The translations under genes were made by a program, and so were the position numbers. 64,000 bases of DNA from Chitinophagales bacterium (GTDB lineage: Bacteria > Bacteroidota > Bacteroidia > Chitinophagales > UBA10324): contig JACDDS010000018.1 of the NCBI GenBank assembly GCA_013816805.1, positions 1 through 64,000 on the forward strand, in the 5' to 3' direction. Under the pieces are notes generated by a model, which searched no databases, was not told the DNA's origin, and worked only from the letters and a program-made list of their open reading frames with translations. Positions within the stretch are counted from its first letter, which is position 1. Every line of letters begins with the position of its first letter. Positions 20,553-35,840 of this stretch are shown here, in pieces.

Positions 20553-22508
20553 ATGATTGATACCTTACCGCCAGCTAATTCAATAACTGCTTATGGCTCC
20601 TTTGTAACACGGGAAGTAAGAGCCGGCAGCGTAATTATAGGTGGCAATAATCCGCTTCGCATTCAGTCCATGACTACTACGGATACCATGGATACCCTGG
20701 CCACAGTGGAGCAATCGATTCGTCTGATTACTGCAGGCTGCGAACTGGTGCGTATTACTGCACCAAGCATTCGCGAAGCGCAGAACCTCAAAGAAATAAA
20801 AAAGGAATTGCAGAAAAGAGGTTACTCTGTTCCGCTTGTTGCGGATATTCACTTTACTCCTAATGCCGCTGAAACCGCTGCAAGAATTGTCGAAAAGGTT
20901 CGTATTAACCCAGGGAATTATGCCGATAAAAAAAGATTTCAGACAATAGAATATACGGAATCGGAATACCAATCGGAACTGGACCGAATCCGTGATAAAT
21001 TTTTACCATTAATCCGGATTTGTAAAGATCACGGTACAGCCATGAGAATAGGAACAAACCATGGTTCACTGAGCGATCGGATATTGAGCAGATTTGGTGA
21101 TACCCCCCTTGGCATGGTGGAAAGTGCATTCGAATTTTTAAAGATTGCTGAAGATGAAAAGTATTTTGATATCGTGCTTTCCATGAAGTCAAGCAATCCA
21201 CAGGTGATGGTGAGGGCGTACCGGTTGCTCGTGAACAAAATGGTAGAAGCCGGCAGAAACTACCCGTTGCATCTCGGAGTTACCGAAGCAGGTGATGGTG
21301 AGGATGGAAGAATTAAATCAGCGCTCGGTATCGGGACTTTGCTGGAAGACGGCCTGGGTGATACTATCCGTGTATCGCTAACCGAAGAACCTGAATACGA
21401 AATACCTGTTGCTAAAATTCTTGCAAAGCGATATCCGCGGAAAAGAGAAAGTCAAAAACCGGCATCATCAATTAGTTCAATTATCAATCCTGTTGACTTT
21501 AAAAGACGATCTGCTAACCTGGTAGTAAACATTGGTAATGATCACGTACCTGTGGTTATCGGAGACAGCTGTCTACAAAAAGAAATTACACCTGAAGATT
21601 TTATTCCATTCGGATACCGGTATAATAGAGTAACGGATAAGTGGAACATCAGTGACATGGCCGCGGATTATATTTTCGCTGGAGACCATAAAATTAGTTT
21701 TGAGCTGCCCGGTACATTGGGATTAATAGAGAATTTTGCATCCTGGAAAAATCATCCGGAACTTGAACGCAGTTATCCCTTATTCAGTGTCGAAGAATTC
21801 TTACGTGAAAAAAGCAAATCTGCCCAGCCTAAGTTTATACTGATTAAAATTGAAGACGGCGGTAAAGACTTGTACAATCAGCTTAAGGCTGATGCCAATG
21901 CAGTAGTCATTCTTAGTGCAGAAGATAATAATAGCATAAATGATTACCGGCGGGTGTTTTTTGATTTGAATAAGGAAGAAGTAAAAAATCCTGTTATTAT
22001 CCGTCGGAATTTTTCAAATATTAGCCAGGATGAATTAATGCTGTATGCATCTGCAGATTTTGGTGCGTTGCTTCTGGATGGATTCGGCGATGGCATCTGG
22101 CTGGCATTTTCAGGACTTCCTCCTAAAACAATCAACAGCATCAGTTTTGGAATTTTGCAGGGAACACGACAGCGTATTTCGAAAACAGAATATATTTCGT
22201 GCCCTTCCTGTGGGAGAACCTTATTTGATCTGCAGGAGACCACTGCTAAAATACGGGCACGAACCAACCATTTAAAGGGGGTTAAGATTGCTATAATGGG
22301 TTGTATTGTAAACGGACCAGGGGAAATGGCAGATGCAGACTACGGGTATGTAGGCAGCGGTATCGGAAAAATCACTTTATACAAAGGAAAAGAAATTGTA
22401 AAGCGCGCAGTCAATACAGAGGTTGCGGTTGATGAGCTGATCGACCTGATTAAGTTGAATGGAGACTGGGTAGAAGAACCATCAATGATAGCCTTGAATG
22501 TTGAATAG
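20553..22508 (+). CDS. ispG: (E)-4-hydroxy-3-methylbut-2-enyl-diphosphate synthase, long form
   Basis: 651 residues, about 250 longer than E. coli IspG. The N-terminal TIM barrel is recognisable from RIQSMTTTDTMDT, LVADIHFTPNAA and VRINPGNY. An inserted domain occupies roughly residues 295-540. The C-terminal [4Fe-4S] domain has CPSC (near 550) and GCIVNGPGEMADADYGYVG. It converts methylerythritol cyclodiphosphate to HMBPP in the non-mevalonate isoprenoid pathway. The three-domain form with an insert is known from Bacteroidota, Chlamydiae and plants. TAATTTTG at 20541-20548 resembles a -7 element, which would give a nearly leaderless message. No other MEP-pathway gene is in the window. Confidence 0.95.
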   Translation: MIDTLPPANSITAYGSFVTREVRAGSVIIGGNNPLRIQSMTTTDTMDTLATVEQSIRLITAGCELVRITAPSIREAQNLKEIKKELQKRGYSVPLVADIHFTPNAAETAARIVEKVRINPGNYADKKRFQTIEYTESEYQSELDRIRDKFLPLIRICKDHGTAMRIGTNHGSLSDRILSRFGDTPLGMVESAFEFLKIAEDEKYFDIVLSMKSSNPQVMVRAYRLLVNKMVEAGRNYPLHLGVTEAGDGEDGRIKSALGIGTLLEDGLGDTIRVSLTEEPEYEIPVAKILAKRYPRKRESQKPASSISSIINPVDFKRRSANLVVNIGNDHVPVVIGDSCLQKEITPEDFIPFGYRYNRVTDKWNISDMAADYIFAGDHKISFELPGTLGLIENFASWKNHPELERSYPLFSVEEFLREKSKSAQPKFILIKIEDGGKDLYNQLKADANAVVILSAEDNNSINDYRRVFFDLNKEEVKNPVIIRRNFSNISQDELMLYASADFGALLLDGFGDGIWLAFSGLPPKTINSISFGILQGTRQRISKTEYISCPSCGRTLFDLQETTAKIRARTNHLKGVKIAIMGCIVNGPGEMADADYGYVGSGIGKITLYKGKEIVKRAVNTEVAVDELIDLIKLNGDWVEEPSMIALNVE

Positions 22509-22518
22509 AAATATTCAA

Positions 22519-22776
22519 TCAAATACTGTTTCCTGATTTATCTTTCTTGCTATTTGCATACCAATAATATCCAATACCTCCAACAAGCATATAAGGAATT
22601 ACAAGAAGATACATAATGCCAAGATTTAATCCCTTTGCCTGCGTATTACCCTCTTTAAGGGAGCTTTCCGCAGCCTCTTTACATGCAGCGCATTGTGCAT
22701 AAGAATCAGTATGGGTAGATATGAAAAATATAAAGCTTAATGTAAGAAAAACAACGATACGTTTCAGGTGCTTCAT
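22519..22776 (-). CDS. small CxxC membrane protein
   Basis: 85 residues: signal-anchor helix, then AQCAACKEAAESSLKEGNTQ with a CxxC pair just outside the membrane, then a second helix (LGIMYLLVIPYMLVGGIGYY). This looks like a conserved small Bacteroidota envelope protein; the CxxC could be redox-active or bind metal, which is inference. It starts 42 bp after the amidotransferase gene on the same strand and may belong to that transcript. Confidence 0.65.
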   Translation of the reverse strand: MKHLKRIVVFLTLSFIFFISTHTDSYAQCAACKEAAESSLKEGNTQAKGLNLGIMYLLVIPYMLVGGIGYYWYANSKKDKSGNSI

Positions 22777-22818
22777 AAGGCTAAGTTATTGGTTTGGTAA
22801 TAAATTTTGTATTTGTTG

Positions 22819-23661
22819 TTACACACATTCGGCGGTCTCTAAAATCTTGTTAAACGCATTTCTAAGAAATTCGGGGATGATGTGTTGCTGAGTTAAAACA
22901 ATTTTGTCCGGATCATCCAGGTAATCAATCATCTGGTAAAACTTTGCTTCACCGTAATTTTTAATGATGCTTTCCTTCTTTTCAGGGCGACAAAAATAAC
23001 GGATCATTCCCTGAGGATCGGCTTCGGGATGAAATTGTGTACCTATCCATTCATCTGAAAATCGAACCGCCATTACGGCACGTTCCAATTCAACATGAGG
23101 TCTGATCTTTTCAAATGAAAGAACTTTGAATCCTTCTTTTTGAATAAGAGATATATCGGGTGTTATTACCTGATAATCCCTGGAATCGACTGCATAAAAA
23201 GGGTCAGGAAGATTCAGGAATAAAGGTTCTTCTATCCCTTCATCTGTTTTATGTATTGAAAAAATGCCAAAAGCCGGGGAATGGCGCTTATTCACTTCAC
23301 CGATATTCCAGTGTCTGCATATTAGCTGGAAGGAATGACAAATAAAAAAAACATGCTTTTTCTGATCCGGATTGGAAAGGTTATGTGCCCAAAGCTGGTC
23401 AATAAGATCAAAGTATTTCTTTTCCCAGGGCTCCCCGCTTTCCAGGGGACTACCTGGTCCGCCTGAAGAAATGTAGACATCGTAATCCAGACTGGGCAGC
23501 TGGTTGGCATTTCTTACTTCATAAATATCCCATCTGAGCCGGGCATCTGTTTTTTTTGACTCTACATATAGCAGAGATCGTATACCCCGCATACCTTCAT
23601 TTGCTACCCGATTGTACAAATCAAGAATTGCAATGCGTATGGTGGGTTTCTCCGTTAACAC
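22819..23661 (-). CDS. class I glutamine amidotransferase-like protein
   Basis: 280 residues. GATase-1 fold: IAILDLYNR at the start, SSGGPGSPL forming the oxyanion loop, nucleophile Cys at about C108 in FFICHSFQL, and the His/Glu of the triad in GTQFHPEAD near residue 210. A C-terminal helical extension follows. Stand-alone proteins of this type release ammonia from glutamine or hydrolyse gamma-glutamyl bonds. Its neighbours on the same strand are a GCS2-type carboxylate-amine ligase and, beyond an inserted gene, an ATP-grasp enzyme and an esterase. This suggests it supplies nitrogen to, or trims, an amide- or peptide-like product. The exact reaction is unknown. Confidence 0.88.
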   Translation of the reverse strand: MLTEKPTIRIAILDLYNRVANEGMRGIRSLLYVESKKTDARLRWDIYEVRNANQLPSLDYDVYISSGGPGSPLESGEPWEKKYFDLIDQLWAHNLSNPDQKKHVFFICHSFQLICRHWNIGEVNKRHSPAFGIFSIHKTDEGIEEPLFLNLPDPFYAVDSRDYQVITPDISLIQKEGFKVLSFEKIRPHVELERAVMAVRFSDEWIGTQFHPEADPQGMIRYFCRPEKKESIIKNYGEAKFYQMIDYLDDPDKIVLTQQHIIPEFLRNAFNKILETAECV

Positions 23662-23873
23662 AGTTGGGTTAAGTTATTTCCTAAAAAAATTTTCAATTCG
23701 GCAAGTGAAATAAATGGAATCCTGGTTTTATAATTATTATGATTTAATGGAGAATTCATTTTCAAGAACAATATCCGACACAAATTTCTCTCTTTTTGCC
23801 AAATTAAAAATTACGTTTAAATAAAACGTACGAAGATTAAACATTAACATAACTAATAAGTTCAAAACTGCTA

Positions 23874-24977
23874 TTATAAGCCCACATTGGTTTCTTCTAC
23901 TATATAATCCACTACCTTTTTAAGATCGCCGTATTCCTGAAAGACTTTTAACTGTCGGTCTGCACCGCTTCCCATTATAAGAATCTGCCGAAGATATTCC
24001 ACTTCTTCCCGGCAATTCAGATCATCTACCACATCATCCACAAAGGAAATCATTTCTTCCACTAACATCCAGAAAGGCACTTCTTCTTCTTTTCCAAAAT
24101 CAATCATCTTCCCATTTATACCATACCTGGCAGCACGCCATTTATTCTCATTTATCAGCGCCCGCTTGTAGTGCCGAAAGCTTAAATTTTGCTGCATAAG
24201 CTTATACTGCTTAGCTACCACAGCCTGCATAATTGCTGCAAGTGCTATTGTTTCATCCAACCTCATAGGAACATCGCATATTCTGAACTCCAGTGTATTG
24301 AAAAAAGGATGAAGTCTAAGATCCCACCATATTTTCTTCCCATTATCGATGCAGTTTGTCTTTATCAAAAGGGTTATGTATTCATCATATTCAGCTGCGG
24401 ACACAAAATTTTCAGGGATGCCGGTACGAGGAAATTTGTCGAACACTTTAGTCCGGTAAGATTTAAACCCGGTATTCCTTCCTAACCAGAATGGAGAATT
24501 AGTAGAAAGAGCGAAGATATGTGGCAATACATACCGGATGGCATTCATTATCTGAATTCCGGTTTGCCGGTTATCTATTCCTACATGTACGTGTAACCCA
24601 AAAATCAAGTTGGAGCGTGCAGCATCCTGCATTTCACCTACAATATCCACATAGCGCGGATGATCGGTGATAAGTGCATCCTGCCAGCGTGAAAAAGGAT
24701 GTGTACCGGCGGCGCCTATGCGGGCGCCTTGCTGATTTGCAATTTCTGAAATTACTTTCCGAAGCTTCCTTACTTCCTCACGGGCCTCTTTCACATCGTG
24801 ACAAATATTAGTGCCAACCTCCACTACCGCCTGGTGCATCTCCGCCTTTACCTGCTCATTTAAAATGGTTTTCCCTCCTTCCACCACCTCATGCATGTGC
24901 GATACCAATTCCCGGCTTTCCGGGTCAATGATCATAAATTCTTCTTCGATACCAATGGTAAATAGCTCCTTATTCAT
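23874..24977 (-). CDS. GCS2-type carboxylate-amine ligase (YbdK-like)
   Basis: 367 residues. Family motifs: FTIGIEEEFMIIDPESREL at the N-terminus (ATP/metal-binding glutamates), GLHVHVGI near residue 127, and LEFRICDVPMRLDETIALA near 230. GCS2/YbdK enzymes join an amino acid carboxylate to an amine with ATP, as in gamma-glutamylcysteine ligase. Many have no known product. It is 212 bp upstream of the amidotransferase gene. Two TATCTTTCAA repeats just upstream of the ATG (within 24977-25013 on the minus strand) resemble weak -7 elements. Confidence 0.88.
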   Translation of the reverse strand: MNKELFTIGIEEEFMIIDPESRELVSHMHEVVEGGKTILNEQVKAEMHQAVVEVGTNICHDVKEAREEVRKLRKVISEIANQQGARIGAAGTHPFSRWQDALITDHPRYVDIVGEMQDAARSNLIFGLHVHVGIDNRQTGIQIMNAIRYVLPHIFALSTNSPFWLGRNTGFKSYRTKVFDKFPRTGIPENFVSAAEYDEYITLLIKTNCIDNGKKIWWDLRLHPFFNTLEFRICDVPMRLDETIALAAIMQAVVAKQYKLMQQNLSFRHYKRALINENKWRAARYGINGKMIDFGKEEEVPFWMLVEEMISFVDDVVDDLNCREEVEYLRQILIMGSGADRQLKVFQEYGDLKKVVDYIVEETNVGL

Positions 24978-25350
24978 TTGAAAGATAATATGGTGTTGAA
25001 AGATAGTGTAACCTCTATTTCAGATTTTGATCTGATCAGCACTATTAATTGTTGATCATGCAATATAGCAGTAAAAAAAAATCTAGTGATTGTAATTTAG
25101 AAGCAATAGATGCCATTTATCTAAGATGCAAGCAATACTTTTTATTCTTGCGAAGTCAAAGCTTTCTTTGTAAATTTTAAAATGTTTCCTGATTTTTCCA
25201 AATAGATTATTGGCAGCATCCGAAAAGAATTAACAGTTAAACAGATCTTTTCATTCTCTTAATTCAATTAAATCTGGTAATATATTCCAATTTTAAATTC
25301 AATTAAACTTCTGAATAAATTTTAAGTCTATTTACCATTAAAAAATATAC
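24978..25350. other. intergenic spacer between divergent GCS2 ligase and T9SS genes
   Basis: An AT-rich spacer of 373 bp. Apart from the two TATCTTTCAA repeats next to the ligase start, I see no gene, RNA element or strong dyad. Confidence 0.5.
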
Positions 25351-26994
25351 ATGAAATACACCGGTCTTATCATTTTTTTTCTTTTAATCAGATTAGGTTT
25401 AGTTGCATCCGTATTACAATCTACGGATCAGCCTACAGGCGATACGTGCCATGTTATTAATGGAAAAATTTCCGACTATATAAGTTACCCCAATGCAGGA
25501 CTGGTTACAAGTTCAGATGGTAATATTTATACAGCTACCTGCAATCGTGATAAAAATATTGATAAGAATACGAGCATTGTATTACGTTGTTTCAACCCTG
25601 ACGGAAGCCCGAATCAATACATTCCACCTGTATCGTATAAAATCGGTCTAGAATGCAGTCTTGTAAAAATGGTAATTGATAGTGACGATAATATTTATAT
25701 GGTTTTAGGATATAAACCAGATCAAACGGATAGCTCCGATGTGCAGCTTGTAAAATACAATTTGCAACTCCAGCTGATATGGGAAATTTTAATAGCTTCT
25801 TATGGCCAGCCGGTTGCAAAAGATATGACAATTGATAATGCAGGAAATATTTGGATTACCGGTGGTTATTTTATAGGTTCCTGGGGTCTTTTGCTGATTA
25901 CCAAAATTCAACCGGATGGTCAAAAGCTGTTCGGAGAAGGTTTCTCTTTCGGTAACCAGGGAAGTGCAATCACTACGGATATGGCAGGTCATGCCTACGT
26001 ATGCGGTTATAGGAGCTTCGAGGGAGTACATAATTTCATTGCTATGGCCTTTGATCAGGATGGAAATTTATTTTGGTCTAAGAGCTTCGATGGTGAAAGT
26101 CGTAAAAATGACAGTTTAGATATTGCCTATGACTGTATCTCTGTAAATGGTTTTTTGTACGTGGCCGGATCGTTGAATTTAAAATCTAAAACGACAAACG
26201 CATCTCAGCAAGTGGTTTATAAAATAAGAGAAAGGGATGGAAGGATCGATTGGTTCAGAACCTCATCATCGGGTCAAACTCATGCAGATGCTGCAAAAAA
26301 AATTCTAACAGATTTTAAAGGTAATATATATATCGCGGGAGAAGCGTATGATAATCAACAAATCACCTTAACTAAATATGATACAAGCGGAAATCTGAAA
26401 TTTACTGAAGCATATACCGCAGATCCTGATGCAGCCACTACAGGCAAAGAATTTTTTGTTTTAAATGATTTTTATAAGCTCGCATCTGATTCTTTCTATC
26501 TATACGGGCATATTAAAGATTATGCAGAAGATGGATCTTTTAATACGATTCATGGCTTTATAATTCAATACAGTAATGATGGATCGTTGCTTTCAGAAAA
26601 TGAAAGTAATGTGGGTGATTTCCTTGTAATTACCGGAAACAGCAATAATAACATGATCTATTCAGTTAGTAGTGTTCCATTTTTGCAGTCAGTTAATGAC
26701 GTAGATGCATCTTATTATCTTCATATTTTTACAAATATTCCAACGACAGCACCTGTATCTCTTCACAAATTAAATTATTTATTGTATCCCACAGCGGCAC
26801 ACGAGTGGTTGAACATTAGTAATGCAAGTGGTGGAGAAATCTATTTTTATAATGTTTATGACCAATTAACATGGAAAACTCAATTATCATTTGGAGACAA
26901 CATTTTAAACGTTTCTAACTTACCGCGTGGAATTTATATGATCAAAATTGTTTTTAAAAATAAGGTTGAAGACCAAAAAATAATTCTGCTTTAA
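25351..26994 (+). CDS. exported beta-propeller-like protein with T9SS type A sorting domain
   Basis: 547 residues with a signal peptide (residues 1-20). The body repeats strands of the SBBP/YD type: VTSSDGNIYTATCN, DSDDNIYMVLGY, DNAGNIWITGGYF, DMAGHAYVCGYRSF, DFKGNIYIAGEAYD. These are blades of a propeller. The C-terminal ~75 residues (LLYPTAAHEWLNISN, GEIYFYNVYDQL, LPRGIYMIKIVF, QKIILL) are a type A sorting domain, so it is a T9SS cargo. It lies on the opposite strand inside the ligase/ATP-grasp cluster and looks like a later insertion. Function unknown. Confidence 0.82.
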   Translation: MKYTGLIIFFLLIRLGLVASVLQSTDQPTGDTCHVINGKISDYISYPNAGLVTSSDGNIYTATCNRDKNIDKNTSIVLRCFNPDGSPNQYIPPVSYKIGLECSLVKMVIDSDDNIYMVLGYKPDQTDSSDVQLVKYNLQLQLIWEILIASYGQPVAKDMTIDNAGNIWITGGYFIGSWGLLLITKIQPDGQKLFGEGFSFGNQGSAITTDMAGHAYVCGYRSFEGVHNFIAMAFDQDGNLFWSKSFDGESRKNDSLDIAYDCISVNGFLYVAGSLNLKSKTTNASQQVVYKIRERDGRIDWFRTSSSGQTHADAAKKILTDFKGNIYIAGEAYDNQQITLTKYDTSGNLKFTEAYTADPDAATTGKEFFVLNDFYKLASDSFYLYGHIKDYAEDGSFNTIHGFIIQYSNDGSLLSENESNVGDFLVITGNSNNNMIYSVSSVPFLQSVNDVDASYYLHIFTNIPTTAPVSLHKLNYLLYPTAAHEWLNISNASGGEIYFYNVYDQLTWKTQLSFGDNILNVSNLPRGIYMIKIVFKNKVEDQKIILL

Positions 26995-27074
26995 GCAATA
27001 TAACATTGAGGATCAAAATCATATGAAATAAGAAAAGCGTTTTCATTAGATATTCTTATTCATAGTTAACATCA

Positions 27075-28034
27075 TTATTCTTTCATCATCCCCATTCCCT
27101 GGGAACCCCGCTTTACAAACGCCCCCCAGGTAAGATTATCTTCTCCTTCCTGATTAGCTAATGCTCTTTCAATGGCCATATTTGCAGCATTTTCCACTAC
27201 CCATTCAAAATTTTCATCACCTACTGAATGCCTTTCGGCATCGGGAGCCGGGTTGCAGAAATCTATGGCATAAGGCACTCCTTCCCGGATGGCAAATTCT
27301 ACAGTATTAAAATCATAACCCAAAGCCTGATTCAATTTTATTACATAATTATGAACAGTCTGCAACAACTCTTCCGATACATGATGGGTGGCAGCGTAAC
27401 GCAAATGATGGGGGTTACGGGGTTCATAATTCATAATGCGCACCGATTTTCCACCAAGGCAATAGCACCGGAAATAGGAGTCAAACTTGATTTCCTCCTG
27501 AAGCATCATAACCAGCTTACCTGTTTCGGCATGCCTGGCAAAAAGATCCTGTTGATCACTGATTTTATATACGCTTTTCCAACCGCCACCTGAATGGGGT
27601 TTCATGTAGGCGGGAAAACCGATGTAGCCAATTATATTTTCCCAATCCAGCGGAGATACCAGGTTGCTGAACGATTCCGAAGAAGTATCATCGGGATGAT
27701 CGTAAGAAGGAAGCAATACCGTTTTTGGAACGGGTACGCCAATTTTAACAGCGAGCGCATTATTAAAAAACTTTTCATCAGCACTCCACCAAAAAGGATT
27801 GTTTAGAACAGCTGTTCCTGAAATAGCAGCATTTTTCAAATATGCGCGATAAAAAGGAACATCCTGGGAAATGCGATCGATTATCACGGAATATTCAGAA
27901 GGATAACCCTGTGCCACCTTATCGATCCGGACCGGTTCAGCAATAATATTCTCTACATTTTTTGAATTGACTCTTTCGATAAAAGCCTGAGGAAACGAAC
28001 GTTCCATGCCGAAAAGAATCCCGATTTTTTTCAT
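27075..28034 (-). CDS. ATP-grasp ligase-like protein
   Basis: 319 residues. ATP-grasp features: NNPFWWSADEKFFNNALAVK near residue 78, VPVPKTVLLPSY, IGYIGFPAYMKPHSGGGWKS carrying the nucleotide-binding lysine, LMMLQEEI-type hinge, and the metal-binding VEFAIREGVPYAIDFCNPAP near 250. ATP-grasp enzymes form amide or thioester bonds through acyl phosphates. It is 82 bp downstream of the esterase gene on the same strand and, apart from the inserted T9SS gene, in line with the GCS2 ligase and amidotransferase. This combination resembles amidoligase clusters predicted to make small peptide-like metabolites. Substrates are unknown. Confidence 0.85.
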   Translation of the reverse strand: MKKIGILFGMERSFPQAFIERVNSKNVENIIAEPVRIDKVAQGYPSEYSVIIDRISQDVPFYRAYLKNAAISGTAVLNNPFWWSADEKFFNNALAVKIGVPVPKTVLLPSYDHPDDTSSESFSNLVSPLDWENIIGYIGFPAYMKPHSGGGWKSVYKISDQQDLFARHAETGKLVMMLQEEIKFDSYFRCYCLGGKSVRIMNYEPRNPHHLRYAATHHVSEELLQTVHNYVIKLNQALGYDFNTVEFAIREGVPYAIDFCNPAPDAERHSVGDENFEWVVENAANMAIERALANQEGEDNLTWGAFVKRGSQGMGMMKE

Positions 28035-28116
28035 CGTTGTAATATTTTATATTCAGAAATAATTTAATGCCCGGAATATATTTTGTTTTAGATTTTGAGC
28101 AATTTTAATTTAGTTA

Positions 28117-28866
28117 TTACTTAATCTCACCAAGGTATCGGGGAAACATTTCCCTCCACAAAGGCCAGTCATGAGAAGCTCCTGCCACGATATCCAGCCA
28201 ATGTGGTACGTTTTTATTATGAAGTATCTCCGATAACTTCTTATTGGAGGGGAGGCAGATATCATGCTCTCCGGAGCCAAGCACAATGCCCATTTGATAA
28301 AGTGCAGGGTTATTAAGTTCAGGCAAGAAATCAAAAGGGTTATTATAAAAGACATTATCATCGTAGTAGCCATTTACCTGCGGCTTTATATCAAAGGCAC
28401 CACTCATGCTGAACAGGTAGCCCGTTATTTCAGGATAGCGAAAAGCAAAATTTGCAGCGTGATAGCCACCGAAGCTGCAACCTGCAACGGCCAGTTTAGA
28501 ATGCCAGGAATCCTGCAGTACCTGTGGTGCCATTTCATAGCGAAGAAATTGATCATAAACAACGTGGTTAGCTGCACGGACGGAGGGATCCACCTTTTTA
28601 TTATACCAGCTATCATTATCCACGCTATCGACACAATAGATTTTGACTTTACCTTCATTTACATACCATTGTACGGCATCTAAAAGCTTAAAATCTTTAT
28701 TCTGATAATAATGCCCCATTGAAGTAGGGAAAACTATTATAGGGTATCCACGGTCACCAAAAACAAGCATTTCCGTTTCACGGCCCAGAGTTGGTGAATG
28801 CCATTTAAAATATTGCTCGATCAAAGGAAAAAATGGTTTAATGAAAGACCGGGCTAATGTAGACAA
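28117..28866 (-). CDS. alpha/beta-hydrolase esterase (esterase D/putative-esterase family)
   Basis: 249 residues without a signal peptide. Nucleophile Ser at about S131 in AVAGCSFGGYHAANFAFRYP, acid in GSGEHDICLPS and base in GASHDWPLWREM complete a catalytic triad. The first part (PIIVFPTSMGHYYQNKDFKL) forms the oxyanion region. It is the first gene of the ATP-grasp / GCS2 / amidotransferase group on this strand. Within such a cluster a hydrolase could release, proofread or activate the product, which is inference. A fragment of a T9SS sorting domain lies just upstream at 29010-29130. Confidence 0.88.
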   Translation of the reverse strand: MSTLARSFIKPFFPLIEQYFKWHSPTLGRETEMLVFGDRGYPIIVFPTSMGHYYQNKDFKLLDAVQWYVNEGKVKIYCVDSVDNDSWYNKKVDPSVRAANHVVYDQFLRYEMAPQVLQDSWHSKLAVAGCSFGGYHAANFAFRYPEITGYLFSMSGAFDIKPQVNGYYDDNVFYNNPFDFLPELNNPALYQMGIVLGSGEHDICLPSNKKLSEILHNKNVPHWLDIVAGASHDWPLWREMFPRYLGEIK

Positions 28867-29009
28867 AAAGGAAAATGGTAGGGAATATTAAAATAAATTA
28901 ATTAGCAGGAATATGGCAGCTCCCCAAATCACCTCATGAAATATTGGAATGTTCCATAAGGAGTTGCCCTTAAAACACCTTTTCCGACAGTGGTATAATA
29001 ACGCCAATA

Positions 29010-29130
29010 CTATCGTTGCATTTCGAAAAATTTTTGCATGGACCGGTCGCCGGTTTGCACTTTAAGGATATATGTCCCGCTGGAAATTTTAGGATTTAAG
29101 CTAAATGTAAAAAACCTTAGATTATCAGAA
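29010..29130 (-). pseudogene. T9SS type A sorting-domain remnant
   Basis: A minus-strand frame reads SDNLRFFTFSLNPKISSGTY, then ILKVQTGDRSMQKFFEMQR and a stop at 29010-29012. (I/L)SSGxYILKV...KxFE is the conserved end of a type A sorting domain. The frame has no start of its own and overlaps the end of the FtsB-like gene, so it is the tail of a lost cargo gene. The rest of the 28867-29143 spacer shows nothing else. Confidence 0.6.
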
Positions 29131-29143
29131 GAATATACCAGCT

Positions 29144-29497
29144 TCAATTTATTTTTTTTTCTTCTTTTTTGGCGGGGACAATTACATACAAATCTTCATT
29201 GTCTTTTTTCATCATGTAACGCTCCCTTGCAAATTTTTCAAGTGAAGCCTGGTTAGTCTGCAATTCTCTTTTGGTGTTATTAACCTCTTTTATCTGCTGC
29301 TGATAATATTCTTTTTTTTGCTGGTACCCTCTGAGCTTTTGGTGTAGTTGGATTTGTGTGATGATATCATTTTTATCAAAGAAGAGCATCCAGACAAGAA
29401 AGGCCGTTACGGTAATTACATATTTATTTTTAAAGAAAGGAGCAATTCTGCCCCTGCGAACATTATACAGAAGTGTTTTGAAATTAATTTTCATCAA
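29144..29497 (-). CDS. septum formation initiator (FtsB/DivIC-like) protein
   Basis: 117 residues: short basic N-terminus, one membrane helix (YVITVTAFLVWMLFFDKND), then a coiled coil (IQLHQKLRGYQQKKEYYQQQ, IKEVNNTKRELQTNQASLEK) and the conserved ARERYMMKKDNEDLYVIV end. This is the FtsB/DivIC layout, a bitopic divisome protein linking FtsQ/FtsL. It follows enolase by about 120 bp on the same strand; eno-ftsB adjacency is widespread in bacteria. Confidence 0.9.
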   Translation of the reverse strand: MMKINFKTLLYNVRRGRIAPFFKNKYVITVTAFLVWMLFFDKNDIITQIQLHQKLRGYQQKKEYYQQQIKEVNNTKRELQTNQASLEKFARERYMMKKDNEDLYVIVPAKKEEKKIN

Positions 29498-29619
29498 ACA
29501 ATAATTATTTCAAAGTTGATAAAATTAATATAAGAAATATTAAAAACTTTAAATCTTTCAGAGATTTTATTGACAGGGGCGTTTGTAACGCATATTATTA
29601 ACTGCTTATTATTAATTGT

Positions 29620-30945
<1,326 letters not shown>

Positions 30946-31229: not shown

Positions 31230-34200
31230 ATGAAAAAACTTATTTACACGCTGGTATTTTTGTTGGTTACATTAGGTTCTGTAAAAAATTCTACCGCTGC
31301 AGTTGGTTTGGATATGAGTTATGTATGCACGAGCAAATCGCTACAGAAATACAATTTTACGGTTGCTTTGTACCGTGATTGCAGTGAAGGTCCTGCTCCT
31401 GTAACGCTTACCTTAAAAGTCACTTCCGCCTCGCTTGGATACGCTGCCTCGTACATTGCGAAGCGCACTTCGAGCACTTACGGAACAGACAGTATTTCAC
31501 ATTTGGTTAACTTATGTGCATCGCTAAGCAGCACATGCACCGGTGGTACTTATCCAGGCTATGATCAGACTCTTTATGATGTGTCTTTTAATCTGCCTAA
31601 TCCTGCAGCAGACTGGGTAGTAAGTGTAATGGATTCTAACCGAAGTGCCGCTATAACCAACCTGGCAAATCCGGAAAGCCACACATTGTATTCTGAATGC
31701 CGGATCAATAACAGCATTCCACACCTCGATCATTCTCCGGTGTTTTCATCCTTACCTATTGCTCAGGCCTGCGTCAGTGAGCAATTTCAGTATAGCCTTG
31801 GTACCCGGGATGCCGACGGTGATTCGCTGGTATATTTTTTAGTGCAGCCATTAGAAGGTCCCGGTCAACCCATTCCTTATTCTGATCCCGGCTTTACGCC
31901 AACTCATCCCCTTTCAACAAAAGGAGGCATTTTCATCTTTGGATTACACTCGGGGGAAATGCTATTCAGTGCTGATAAAACTCAGGTGGCAATTATATCA
32001 GTAAGAACAGATGAGTACCGGAACGGAGTAAAGATTGGAAGTATCCAACGTGACATAATGGTTAATGCCACACAGTGTAGTAATCAGTTACCGCAAATAC
32101 AAAATGGATTAGAGAATATTGTAAACGGCTTTCAAAATAGTCCGAAAGATAATATAATAAGAACCTGTCCGAACACTGCATTATCATTTGATATTACAGG
32201 CTTTGACAGGAACGCAGAGGATGCTGTAACAATCCAAACCAATCTTGCGACTTCTATACCCGGAGCCCATTTTAATACTTCGGGAACCAATCCCGTTATC
32301 GGTCACTTTAGCTGGACTCCTACAGATAAGGATGCCGGATTCTATGAATTTACTGTGATCGTAAAAGATAATCAATGTCCCATTTTCGGCCAGCAAATGT
32401 ATACGTTTGGCATCCATGTTAAAAAGTCATATGCAAACGCCGGGAGTGATACTACTGTTTGTTCTCAAAATGCTGTAGTGCAGTTACATGCTTCGGGAGA
32501 AAAACCAATTAACTGGAGCAATGGGAAGTATTTAAACAATGATACCATACGGGATCCAATAGCATCCCTGCCTGGCCCGGGAACGTATTCTTTCGTACTC
32601 ACTACAGATCAAAACAGCTCCTGTGAAGCAAAGGACAAGGTTACTATTAAGGTGACCTCCGATGTAAATGTAGAGGCTTCAGCAGCACCTGATAGCATTT
32701 GTAAAGGTACGGAGGTAAACCTGACAGCAAAAGCCTCAGGAGGCAATGGTGTATTCACTTATAAATGGACATCAAATCCGGCTGGCTTTCAAAGCACGCG
32801 GCAAAATAATAAGGTATCCCCCAATGTAACAACCACCTATTATGTGGAAGTGGAAAGCGGAGGATGCGTTGTGAACGATACGGTTACAGTCACTGTAAAT
32901 CCATCTCCAAGTGCCGCCTTTACTGCTTTACCAAATTCAGGGTGTGATTCGCTAACCGTCTTTTTTCAATCGAATGCATCAGGATCGGATTCTGTTTCCT
33001 GGGATTTTGGAGATGGTACTACCAGCACTGAGCACAACCCATCTCATACCTATCATGCCGGCACTTACACCGTTACTTTAACGGTAACCAATATCTATGG
33101 CTGTTCGGGTACACTCACGATACCCGATTATATTAAGGTAAGTAATGGCTCTTCTAACGCTTCTATTATTGCTTCGGATACTTCCGGTTGTGCTCCTCTT
33201 ACAGTCAATTTTCAGGGAAAGCCCGACAGTGCAAGTTATGCCTGGGACTTCGGTGATGGCTCTGGAAGCATTGAACAAAATCCTTCTCACACTTTTTCAA
33301 CAAACGGGATATTTGTTGTGACCCTCACCGTAAATGGAAGTGAGTGCCCTGCCCACGTAATTATCCGGGTTTCTTCTCCTTCCGCATCTTTCAGCGCTTC
33401 ACCCGCAAGCGGATGTGATCCTTTAACAGTAGCCTTTTCAAATACGTCAACCGGAGCGGATAGTTTTATGTGGTTATTTGGAGATGGTACCACGAGCAAC
33501 CTTAAAAATCCTACTCATATCTACCATGAAGGGACATATAGTGTAACGTTAATCGCTCAAAGTTCCGACGGATGTTCGGATACCCTTACGCTGTCTGATT
33601 TTATTCATGTTGGTACCATTCCTACTATAAATATCTCGGCTTCAGATACAGCAGGGTGCGAGCCGCTGACCGTTTTCTTTACTTCGGGGTCTGGAGGTGA
33701 TACATACTTATGGAGTTTTGGTGACAGCACATCAAGCACGGATTCAGATGCTACCCATACTTATAGCGCGGGTGATTTTACAGTTACTCTTACCGTTACA
33801 AACAATGGCTGTTCCGCCACACAATCAATTGCTGATTACATTCATGTAAAGTCTTCGCCTGTTGTCTCTTTTTCAGGATCACCACAAAGTGGTTGCGACT
33901 CAGCCCTTGTAGTTTATAAAAATAATTCTACTAATGCGGACAGTTACACGTGGCTATTTGGAGATGGAACTTCAAGCAGTGAAAAAAACCCGATGCATAA
34001 ATATTTAATTGGAAACTATACGGTTACACTTATTGCATACAATTCCAATGGATGTTCCGATACTTTAATATTACCGGATTATATTGTCGTTTCACCACGG
34101 CCTTCCGTAACTATTGCTGCTTCAGACACTGCAGGATGTGAACCGTTAACAGTGCAATTTTCAAATTCCAGCGGAAGCGGAGGAACCTATTTATGGGATT

Positions 34201-35840
34201 TTGGAGACGGCAGTACGAGTACGCTTCCAAACCCAATCCATACGTATTCCGCAGGAATCTACACGGTAGCACTTACTGTTTCTAACGGACTGGAATGCTC
34301 CGCAAAGGAAACTATTGTTGATTATATTAAGGTATTGCCATCTCCGGTGGCTTCATTCTTCGGAACACCTGTAAGCGGATGTGATCCTTTGACGGTGCAG
34401 TTCACTAATAATTCTACTGGTGCGAGCTCATACGTTTGGATTTTCGGTGATGGAAATACAAGCACTGAAATAAGCCCTTCTCATTTATATCATAGCGGCA
34501 CTTATGATGTAATCCTGATAGCAACTAATCTGCAGGGCTGTTCTGATACGCTGATATTATCTCAATATATTAAAGTAAGCAGTATGCCGGTAGTTTCATT
34601 CACTGCAGATCCTCTTTTTGGTTGTAATCCATTGACAGTGAATTTCACAAACAACTCTACAGGTGGCAGTAATTATTTCTGGGATTTTGGCGACAGCACT
34701 ACCAGTACAGGAATAAATCCTTCTCATACCTATACCGCCGGGAGTTACAACGTTACCCTTACCGTAACCGCAGATTCCGGCTGTTCTGCGTCTCAAACGT
34801 CTACCCAATTAATCGTAGTGTCTCCCAGCCCCACAGTAGCTTTTGGTGCTGCTCCAACTGCAGGTTGCGAACCGCTTAATGTTCAGTTTACCAATAACTC
34901 GACAGGGGGAACGGCTTACCTGTGGGATTTTGGTGATGGCACTACGAGCACGGAAATTAGTCCTGCTCACACCTATAACGGAGGAACATATGATGTAACA
35001 CTAACGGTATTAAACGATAGCGGCTGTTCGGCTACGCTTACCCTGCCCCAGTTAATACAAGTGGATTCCAACGCTATTGCGTTTATTGCTTCTGATACAT
35101 CCGGTTGTGATCCTTTGACGGTACAGTTCCAAAACCTTACACCCAACGGAACTTCCTTTTCATGGGACTTTGGGGATGGCACTACCAGCACTGAACAAAA
35201 TCCGCAACATGTGTATCACCAGGGAGTATATAACGTAACCCTTTCAGTCACGACTTCCTCAGGATGTTCGGGTAGTGTTACCTATCTTCAATACATTAAG
35301 GTTTATTCAAAGCCTATATCTTCCTTTACTACTACAGAGAACACAAGTGATCCAATAGATATTTCACAGGCAACCATACACTTTAATAATACATCTCAGG
35401 GTGCAGATAGCTATGCATGGGATTTCGGAGATGGAACTGTAAGCAATGATGTGAGCCCCACGCATACGTACACGGCTCCAGATACTGTCTTTGTGACCCT
35501 CATTGCTTACAATGGCTCCTGTTCAGATACAGCAATACTGGGCCCAATTGTTATCGTAAAGCAGGACGATATCTTTTTTCCATCTGCCTTTACACCGAAT
35601 AACGACGGAAAGAATGATTATTTCCATGAAATGATCCAGGTAGGTATCTCGACCCTTGATTTCGCCATTTTCGACCGTTGGGGAAATATGGTATTTCAGA
35701 CGAATGATCCGAAAGGAAAATGGGATGGAGAATATAAAAGTGAGATAGCCGATGTTGGTGTATATGTCTGGTATGCGAAGGCTACGCTATTGAATGGAAA
35801 GGAAATTACGAAGCATGGAAATGTCTCGCTGCTTCGGTGA
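31230..35840 (+). CDS. giant PKD-repeat surface protein with T9SS type B sorting domain
   Basis: 1536 residues. A signal peptide (residues 1-23) precedes a ~380-residue N-terminal region typical of Bacteroidota surface proteins (LDMSYVCTSKSLQKYNFTVA...). An Ig-like section follows (~400-560), then 11 consecutive PKD domains of about 80-85 residues, each with a WDFGDG(T/S)TS...NPSHTY-type core. Cores with W(L/S/I)FGD are at domains 3, 4, 5 and 7. The C-terminal ~85 residues (FFPSAFTPNNDGKNDYF, FDRWGNMVFQT, DVGVYVWYAKATL) are the gliding-motility-associated type B (CHU_C) sorting domain. It is likely a surface-exposed adhesin or matrix protein; type B cargo is often linked to SprF-like partners, none of which is adjacent. 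A terminator follows. Confidence 0.92.
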   Translation: MKKLIYTLVFLLVTLGSVKNSTAAVGLDMSYVCTSKSLQKYNFTVALYRDCSEGPAPVTLTLKVTSASLGYAASYIAKRTSSTYGTDSISHLVNLCASLSSTCTGGTYPGYDQTLYDVSFNLPNPAADWVVSVMDSNRSAAITNLANPESHTLYSECRINNSIPHLDHSPVFSSLPIAQACVSEQFQYSLGTRDADGDSLVYFLVQPLEGPGQPIPYSDPGFTPTHPLSTKGGIFIFGLHSGEMLFSADKTQVAIISVRTDEYRNGVKIGSIQRDIMVNATQCSNQLPQIQNGLENIVNGFQNSPKDNIIRTCPNTALSFDITGFDRNAEDAVTIQTNLATSIPGAHFNTSGTNPVIGHFSWTPTDKDAGFYEFTVIVKDNQCPIFGQQMYTFGIHVKKSYANAGSDTTVCSQNAVVQLHASGEKPINWSNGKYLNNDTIRDPIASLPGPGTYSFVLTTDQNSSCEAKDKVTIKVTSDVNVEASAAPDSICKGTEVNLTAKASGGNGVFTYKWTSNPAGFQSTRQNNKVSPNVTTTYYVEVESGGCVVNDTVTVTVNPSPSAAFTALPNSGCDSLTVFFQSNASGSDSVSWDFGDGTTSTEHNPSHTYHAGTYTVTLTVTNIYGCSGTLTIPDYIKVSNGSSNASIIASDTSGCAPLTVNFQGKPDSASYAWDFGDGSGSIEQNPSHTFSTNGIFVVTLTVNGSECPAHVIIRVSSPSASFSASPASGCDPLTVAFSNTSTGADSFMWLFGDGTTSNLKNPTHIYHEGTYSVTLIAQSSDGCSDTLTLSDFIHVGTIPTINISASDTAGCEPLTVFFTSGSGGDTYLWSFGDSTSSTDSDATHTYSAGDFTVTLTVTNNGCSATQSIADYIHVKSSPVVSFSGSPQSGCDSALVVYKNNSTNADSYTWLFGDGTSSSEKNPMHKYLIGNYTVTLIAYNSNGCSDTLILPDYIVVSPRPSVTIAASDTAGCEPLTVQFSNSSGSGGTYLWDFGDGSTSTLPNPIHTYSAGIYTVALTVSNGLECSAKETIVDYIKVLPSPVASFFGTPVSGCDPLTVQFTNNSTGASSYVWIFGDGNTSTEISPSHLYHSGTYDVILIATNLQGCSDTLILSQYIKVSSMPVVSFTADPLFGCNPLTVNFTNNSTGGSNYFWDFGDSTTSTGINPSHTYTAGSYNVTLTVTADSGCSASQTSTQLIVVSPSPTVAFGAAPTAGCEPLNVQFTNNSTGGTAYLWDFGDGTTSTEISPAHTYNGGTYDVTLTVLNDSGCSATLTLPQLIQVDSNAIAFIASDTSGCDPLTVQFQNLTPNGTSFSWDFGDGTTSTEQNPQHVYHQGVYNVTLSVTTSSGCSGSVTYLQYIKVYSKPISSFTTTENTSDPIDISQATIHFNNTSQGADSYAWDFGDGTVSNDVSPTHTYTAPDTVFVTLIAYNGSCSDTAILGPIVIVKQDDIFFPSAFTPNNDGKNDYFHEMIQVGISTLDFAIFDRWGNMVFQTNDPKGKWDGEYKSEIADVGVYVWYAKATLLNGKEITKHGNVSLLR

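Follow-up and report, generated by a model that had tools for sequence, protein, structure and literature searches.

Gene neighbourhoods that combine amide-bond ligases with hydrolases are already known as a kind: in the part of the survey by Iyer et al. (2008, PMC2588565) on which we draw, a carboxylate-amine ligase lies beside a thiol peptidase resembling glutamine amidotransferases (GATases), and glutathione-like peptide metabolites are predicted as the products. The same part cites the gamma-glutamyl-cysteine ligase activity of the YbdK type of carboxylate-amine ligase (Lehmann 2004). The Escherichia coli proteins YgiC and YjfC are described as peptidylpolyamine synthetases (PMC12568646), and the E. 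coli K-12 record annotates both as peptide-spermidine ligases. Here, we analyse a run of ligase and hydrolase genes in a stretch of 64,000 nucleotides from a Chitinophagales bacterium (assembly GCA_013816805.1, contig JACDDS010000018.1, positions 1 to 64,000; hereafter, the window). We find that its genes for an esterase (EST), an ATP-grasp ligase (GRASP), a carboxylate-amine ligase (GCS2) and a class-I GATase-fold protein (GAT) belong, together with a fifth gene, C3, to a set that recurs across the phylum Bacteroidota. In our reading, the window locus holds the larger part of a pathway of five genes in Bacteroidota for a small amide-linked peptidyl-amine, made by successive ligations and turned over by hydrolases, and we give this reading a probability of about 0.5.

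A co-inherited gene set in Bacteroidota

All four window genes lie on the minus strand, in the order EST (also EST1, 28117-28866), GRASP (27075-28034), GCS2 (23874-24977) and GAT (22819-23661), with a gene of the type IX secretion system (T9SS) kind interposed on the other strand. An earlier reading of the sequence without database searches (the sequence-only reading) had described this arrangement, and the open reading frames, strands and families bear it out. The order EST, GRASP, GCS2, GAT and then C3 recurs in Pedobacter, Mucilaginibacter, Dyadobacter, Cyclobacteriaceae and Cryomorpha, and of 80 named loci, 24 have all five genes in this order. Gaps within these operons are often 2-40 bp, in some cases 2-30 bp, and as short as 2 bp. 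GRASP is followed by GCS2 in 65 of the 74 loci with enough flank; Chitinophagaceae keep this pair, with GAT and C3, in that order, often lying elsewhere in the genome.

We determined co-occurrence in a sample of 296 genomes of the phylum, in which GRASP was found in 109, GCS2 in 93, C3 in 92 and GAT in 70. Of these genomes, 89 have both GRASP and C3 (GRASP alone in 20, C3 alone in 3), 90 have both GRASP and GCS2 (GRASP alone in 19, GCS2 alone in 3), and 69 of the 70 with GAT also carry GRASP. Fisher p values, which ignore shared ancestry, range from 1e-21 to 1e-61. One genome (G154) has GCS2, GAT and C3 adjacent with no GRASP found, perhaps owing to an assembly gap. The genes are thus co-inherited, and often form one operon, far beyond chance, as seen both in the recurrence of their order across the phylum and in their co-occurrence over the sampled genomes. 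The proposal that the four genes make up a real, ligase-dominated set therefore holds, and their occurrence together in many families contradicts the possibility that the combination is confined to this genome. The set is larger than proposed, however, comprising at least five genes, with the ligase C3 on another contig of this genome. Carriage of the set on plasmids was considered and rejected: GRASP, GAT and C3 had no match in the plasmid sequences searched, and YbdK relatives found on plasmids have unrelated neighbours.

C3 and its replacement, C6

C3 encodes a protein of about 395 amino acids that matches no Pfam family. The copy in the source genome (G000:C2:234569-235753) shows 53% identity to the query (locus L131). 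A model of C3, made for a Pedobacter xixiisoli relative, reached a predicted local distance difference test (pLDDT) score of 90.8, and its nearest fold neighbours are YgiC and YjfC, with scores that include those for YgiC (Z 26.1), human glutathione synthetase (25.2), GspSA (24.5) and trypanothione synthetase (22.9). The matches that include YgiC and YjfC span Z 20-26, after which the scores fall to 13 and 7.9. C3 is thus predicted to have the fold of glutathione synthetase and glutathionylspermidine synthetase (Gss) over its whole chain. Alignment by hand indicates that the ATP-site lysine (YVLKP) and the conserved aspartate are kept.

Genomes that have GRASP without C3 point to an exchange of one ligase for another. 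In 15 of 20 such genomes we found C6, a CP_ATPgrasp_2 protein and another permuted ATP-grasp, which by its coordinates adjoins GRASP in 15 of 15 cases and GAT in 14 of 15. The remaining five contain only distant GRASP relatives (26-46% identity). C6 was present in none of the 40 genomes tested that carry both GRASP and C3, and in none of 20 genomes without GRASP. C3 and C6 probably belong to one ligase class, because 3n6x, which Foldseek ranks first for C3, is also matched by the C6 profile; a direct comparison of the C3 and C6 profiles was roughly collinear and weak. GRASP is paired with C3 or C6 and, where tested, never with both; it thus seems to depend on another ligase, and on the simplest reading it has exactly one partner from this class.

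The GRASP and GCS2 ligases

The assignment of GRASP to the RimK/LysX type of ATP-grasp fold is weak by sequence and confirmed by its modelled structure. Against the NCBIfam RimK family model it scores 32.6 bits (E 5e-8; cut-off 143.4), making it a relative of RimK and not a member of the family as defined there. In its AlphaFold2 model (pLDDT 82.7), the best fold match is RimK (Z 19.9 over 257 residues at 2.8 A), with LysX and ArgX at Z 18.6-19.0; the graspetide ligases PsnB and MdnB/C are also among the matches, with RimK and LysX scoring higher. The glycine loop (MKPHSGGGW) is intact, and a DxN metal site (YAIDFCN) is conserved. Membership of the R2K clade, family 2, was rejected, as the R2K_2 score in Pfam, 19.3 bits, falls under the gathering cut-off of 26.2; the part of the R2K survey consulted (PMC4431377) describes no such gene set. 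In one family (f25; loci L060, L061, L062 and L076), a histidine ammonia-lyase gene lies closely 3′ of GRASP and an amidohydrolase beside C3 is weakly HutI-like; a link of these GRASP loci to histidine metabolism is possible.

GCS2 matches PF04107 with 211.6 bits (cut-off 21), the NCBIfam model PRK13515/NF010039 with 548 bits (cut-off 371) and the YbdK family model TIGR02050 with 294.7 bits (cut-off 176.4), and its profile finds the YbdK structure 1r8g at E 1.7e-65. The EEE metal motif is intact (GIEEEF), and GxEEE[FY] is present in 101 of 101 relatives. These matches place GCS2 as a YbdK-type carboxylate-amine ligase, with predicted gamma-glutamyl ligase activity.

GAT and the esterases

GAT matches PF00117 with 30 bits (cut-off 22.8), and its Cys-His-Glu triad (C108, H211 and E213, in the motifs ICHSFQ and QFHPEAD) is invariant in an alignment of 17 sequences. 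In profile comparison, the closest proteins of solved structure are 3l7n and a homoserine O-succinyltransferase, and each of these matches is weak. The sequence-only reading had called it an amidotransferase. The nucleophile motif, however, is FICHSFQ or a close variant, in which the glycines of the canonical GxCxGxQ elbow are absent. Moreover, 41 of the 76 C3 genes examined have GAT immediately upstream, and in ten genomes without GAT an M29 peptidase (G055, G093, G255 and G271) or an amidohydrolase (G027, G043, G059, G086, G101 and G105) stands beside or near C3, at or near the site upstream of it. Because it lacks the elbow glycines, adjoins C3 or C6 instead of an ammonia-using synthetase and is exchanged in some genomes for unrelated hydrolases, GAT is more likely a thiol hydrolase, or an acyltransferase, acting on an amide than a donor of ammonia. 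The source genome also holds a relative of the amidohydrolase that in other genomes adjoins GAT or C3 (55% identity; G000:C1:253597-255186), unlinked to the set.

EST matches PF00756 with 31.1 bits (cut-off 22) and is, as judged from its conserved serine (in GCSFGGYH), aspartate and histidine (HDW), a predicted serine esterase of that kind; motifs like GCSFGGY, and HDW, are found in nearly all relatives. Its open reading frame opens with TTG, and a second TTG 14 codons downstream, at 28824, fits the N terminus of the relatives better and is probably the real start. In many loci a second PF00756 esterase gene, EST2, adjoins GRASP or EST in divergent orientation; the source genome has a homologue of it elsewhere. 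Outside Bacteroidota, an EST relative is paired on plasmids with another ATP-grasp protein (PF13535), in Peptoclostridium (L232:4779-6744) and Pararhizobium (L234:4816-6744), which suggests that the partnership of esterase and ATP-grasp extends beyond this set.

Other genes of the window locus

Two further genes complete the six whose open reading frames were confirmed in position and strand. The gene between GRASP and GCS2 (25351-26994, plus strand) encodes a beta-propeller protein with a T9SS tail (Por_Secre_tail, TIGR04183, 31.5 bits; cut-off 23), and a small CxxC membrane protein is encoded 42 bp 3′ of GAT (22519-22776, minus strand). A tblastn search of 69 related loci found no match to either, and we therefore take both as local and reject them as members of the set, including the CxxC protein that had been counted with the cluster. 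Scans of 22400-29200 for promoters, terminators and repeats gave nothing above chance. By eye, an enolase gene and a gene for a small DivIC/FtsB-like septum protein (29144-30918) precede the run on the same strand, and the run may here be transcribed from housekeeping promoters. Upstream of these two genes, a secreted protein of 1536 residues with many PKD-like repeats, also recognized by eye, is encoded at 31230-35840.

A candidate pathway and its alternatives

In the pathway that we propose, GCS2, where present, would join the gamma-carboxyl of glutamate to an amine, and GRASP would activate a carboxylate as an acyl phosphate and add a further amino acid. C3 (or C6) would then activate the end carboxylate of the intermediate and attach an amine or an amino acid to it; the fold neighbours of C3 use spermidine or glycine in this way. 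GAT would hydrolyse an amide in the product, or in a product formed in error, EST would remove an ester, and GAT and the esterases together would trim or recycle. Our leading guess for the amine is a polyamine. Enzyme classes and co-inheritance are those described above, from which we infer the order of steps, the substrates and the product. We advance more tentatively the idea that GRASP and a ligase of glutathione synthetase (GSS) type, C3 or C6, are an obligatory pair for a new class of peptidyl-amine, perhaps a peptidyl-polyamine, in a large part of Bacteroidota, with the GATase-fold protein as a dedicated amidase.

Several observations weigh against this pathway. GRASP, GCS2 and C3 lie apart from each other in many families, GAT is missing from 37 genomes that carry C3, and the immediate neighbourhood of the set showed no polyamine gene. 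GCS2 was not found in four genomes (G037, G064, G158 and G178) that keep GRASP, GAT and C3, which suggests that the pair of GRASP and C3, and not GCS2, is the core of the set; the gamma-glutamyl linkage, one of the options offered by the sequence-only reading, is thus not its invariant core. The fit of C3 to its supposed counterparts is also imperfect: by hand alignment, its metal motif is ExQ, with glutamine replacing the asparagine of ExN, and the arginine two residues before the conserved aspartate (R-x-D in E. coli Gss, YgiC and YjfC) was not found, so that its substrate may differ from theirs, and the match to the YgiC, YjfC and Gss profiles is weak and roughly collinear (hhalign probability 25%). 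Furthermore, the substrates and product of every member of the set are predicted from family and fold, and RimK, to which GRASP is closest in fold, is an enzyme of protein modification.

This last point leads to an alternative in which the set modifies proteins, with GRASP adding amino acids to a protein as RimK and the tubulin-tyrosine-ligase-like enzymes do, C3 extending or capping the tag and GAT or the esterase removing it. The leading fold matches of GRASP (RimK, LysX and ArgX) act on proteins, hydrolase partners would suit reversible tagging, and neither a transporter nor any other small-molecule enzyme is a constant companion of the set; nonetheless, C3 is of a fold class with known activity on small peptides and polyamines, and the operon, in which the gaps are often 2-40 bp, has no recurrent gene for a small conserved substrate protein. 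On balance, we regard protein modification as unlikely. Still less probable is a glutathione-like low-molecular-weight thiol, with GCS2 serving as GshA and GRASP or C3 as the synthetase, even though GCS2 is of a type with gamma-glutamyl-cysteine ligase activity, C3 has the predicted fold of the eukaryotic glutathione synthetase and EST shares its broad family with S-formylglutathione hydrolase. The bacillithiol gene bshC occurs in 291 of the 296 genomes, including the source genome, so bacillithiol is very likely already present and these bacteria do not depend on the set for their main thiol; we reject this as its main role, and a simple glutathione-like function is unlikely. A third ligase would be surplus to such a pathway, and GCS2 is absent from some carriers.

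Two other explanations have little in their favour. The presence of PsnB and MdnB/C among the fold matches of GRASP raises the idea of a graspetide, a ribosomally synthesized and post-translationally modified peptide (RiPP) in which GRASP would cyclise a ribosomal precursor. We consider this very improbable: RimK and LysX are the better matches, no recurring small precursor was present among the predicted genes of 60 amino acids or more around the set (smaller frames were not searched), several operon gaps could not accommodate one, and RiPP clusters do not show the pattern seen here, a single GRASP per genome over a very large number of species. That the genes are separate housekeeping genes, neighbours without a joint function, might be argued from the interruption of the run by the T9SS gene here and from the families in which the genes lie apart, but the order kept over many families, the co-occurrence of genes even when unlinked and the mutual exclusion of C3 and C6 leave this explanation scarcely credible.

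Significance and comparison with known systems

The gene combination, the C3 family and the exchange of C3 for C6 were not found in the literature searched, although part of this may be mentioned in the 2009 amidoligase survey (Iyer et al.). Two or three amide-bond ligases are co-inherited as a set in about one in three of the genomes sampled from a large and well-studied phylum, and one of these ligases, C3, is from a family without a Pfam entry. A metabolite or tag retained over such distances likely matters for basic physiology, and the swaps between C3 and C6, and among GAT, the M29 peptidase and the amidohydrolase, make single roles testable.

Comparison with described systems sets these predictions in context. 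C3 shares its fold with E. coli YgiC, YjfC and Gss (Z 24-26 over about 340 residues), and in the synthetase/amidase Gss a ligase is likewise tied to a cysteine hydrolase, which here is the product of a neighbouring gene, GAT. In contrast to these proteins, to which it is about 11-14% identical, C3 has ExQ for ExN, and hand alignment found no R-x-D arginine; the hydrolase here has a GATase fold, and RimK-like and YbdK-like ligases are added. Glutathione biosynthesis (GshA with GshB or GSS) also combines a GCS2-type ligase with ATP-grasp ligases, one of which has the eukaryotic glutathione synthetase fold, but here there are three ligases, GCS2 is dispensable and bshC is nearly universal in the same genomes. 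GRASP resembles RimK, LysX and ArgX best in fold (Z 18.6-19.9), yet is only 12-18% identical to them and stands outside a lysine-biosynthesis or ribosomal context. The fungal E-64 pathway, whose ligase Cp1B is a fold match of C3 (Z 22.6), builds an acyl-amino acid-amine by stepwise ligation; it differs in being fungal, in having an amide bond synthetase as the partner and in lacking GAT and GCS2. The neighbourhoods of Iyer et al. (2008, PMC2588565) place a ligase and a GATase-fold thiol peptidase side by side, as here, with a ligase from a family other than YbdK and, in the part of that survey used, no RimK-like ligase, C3 or esterase described.

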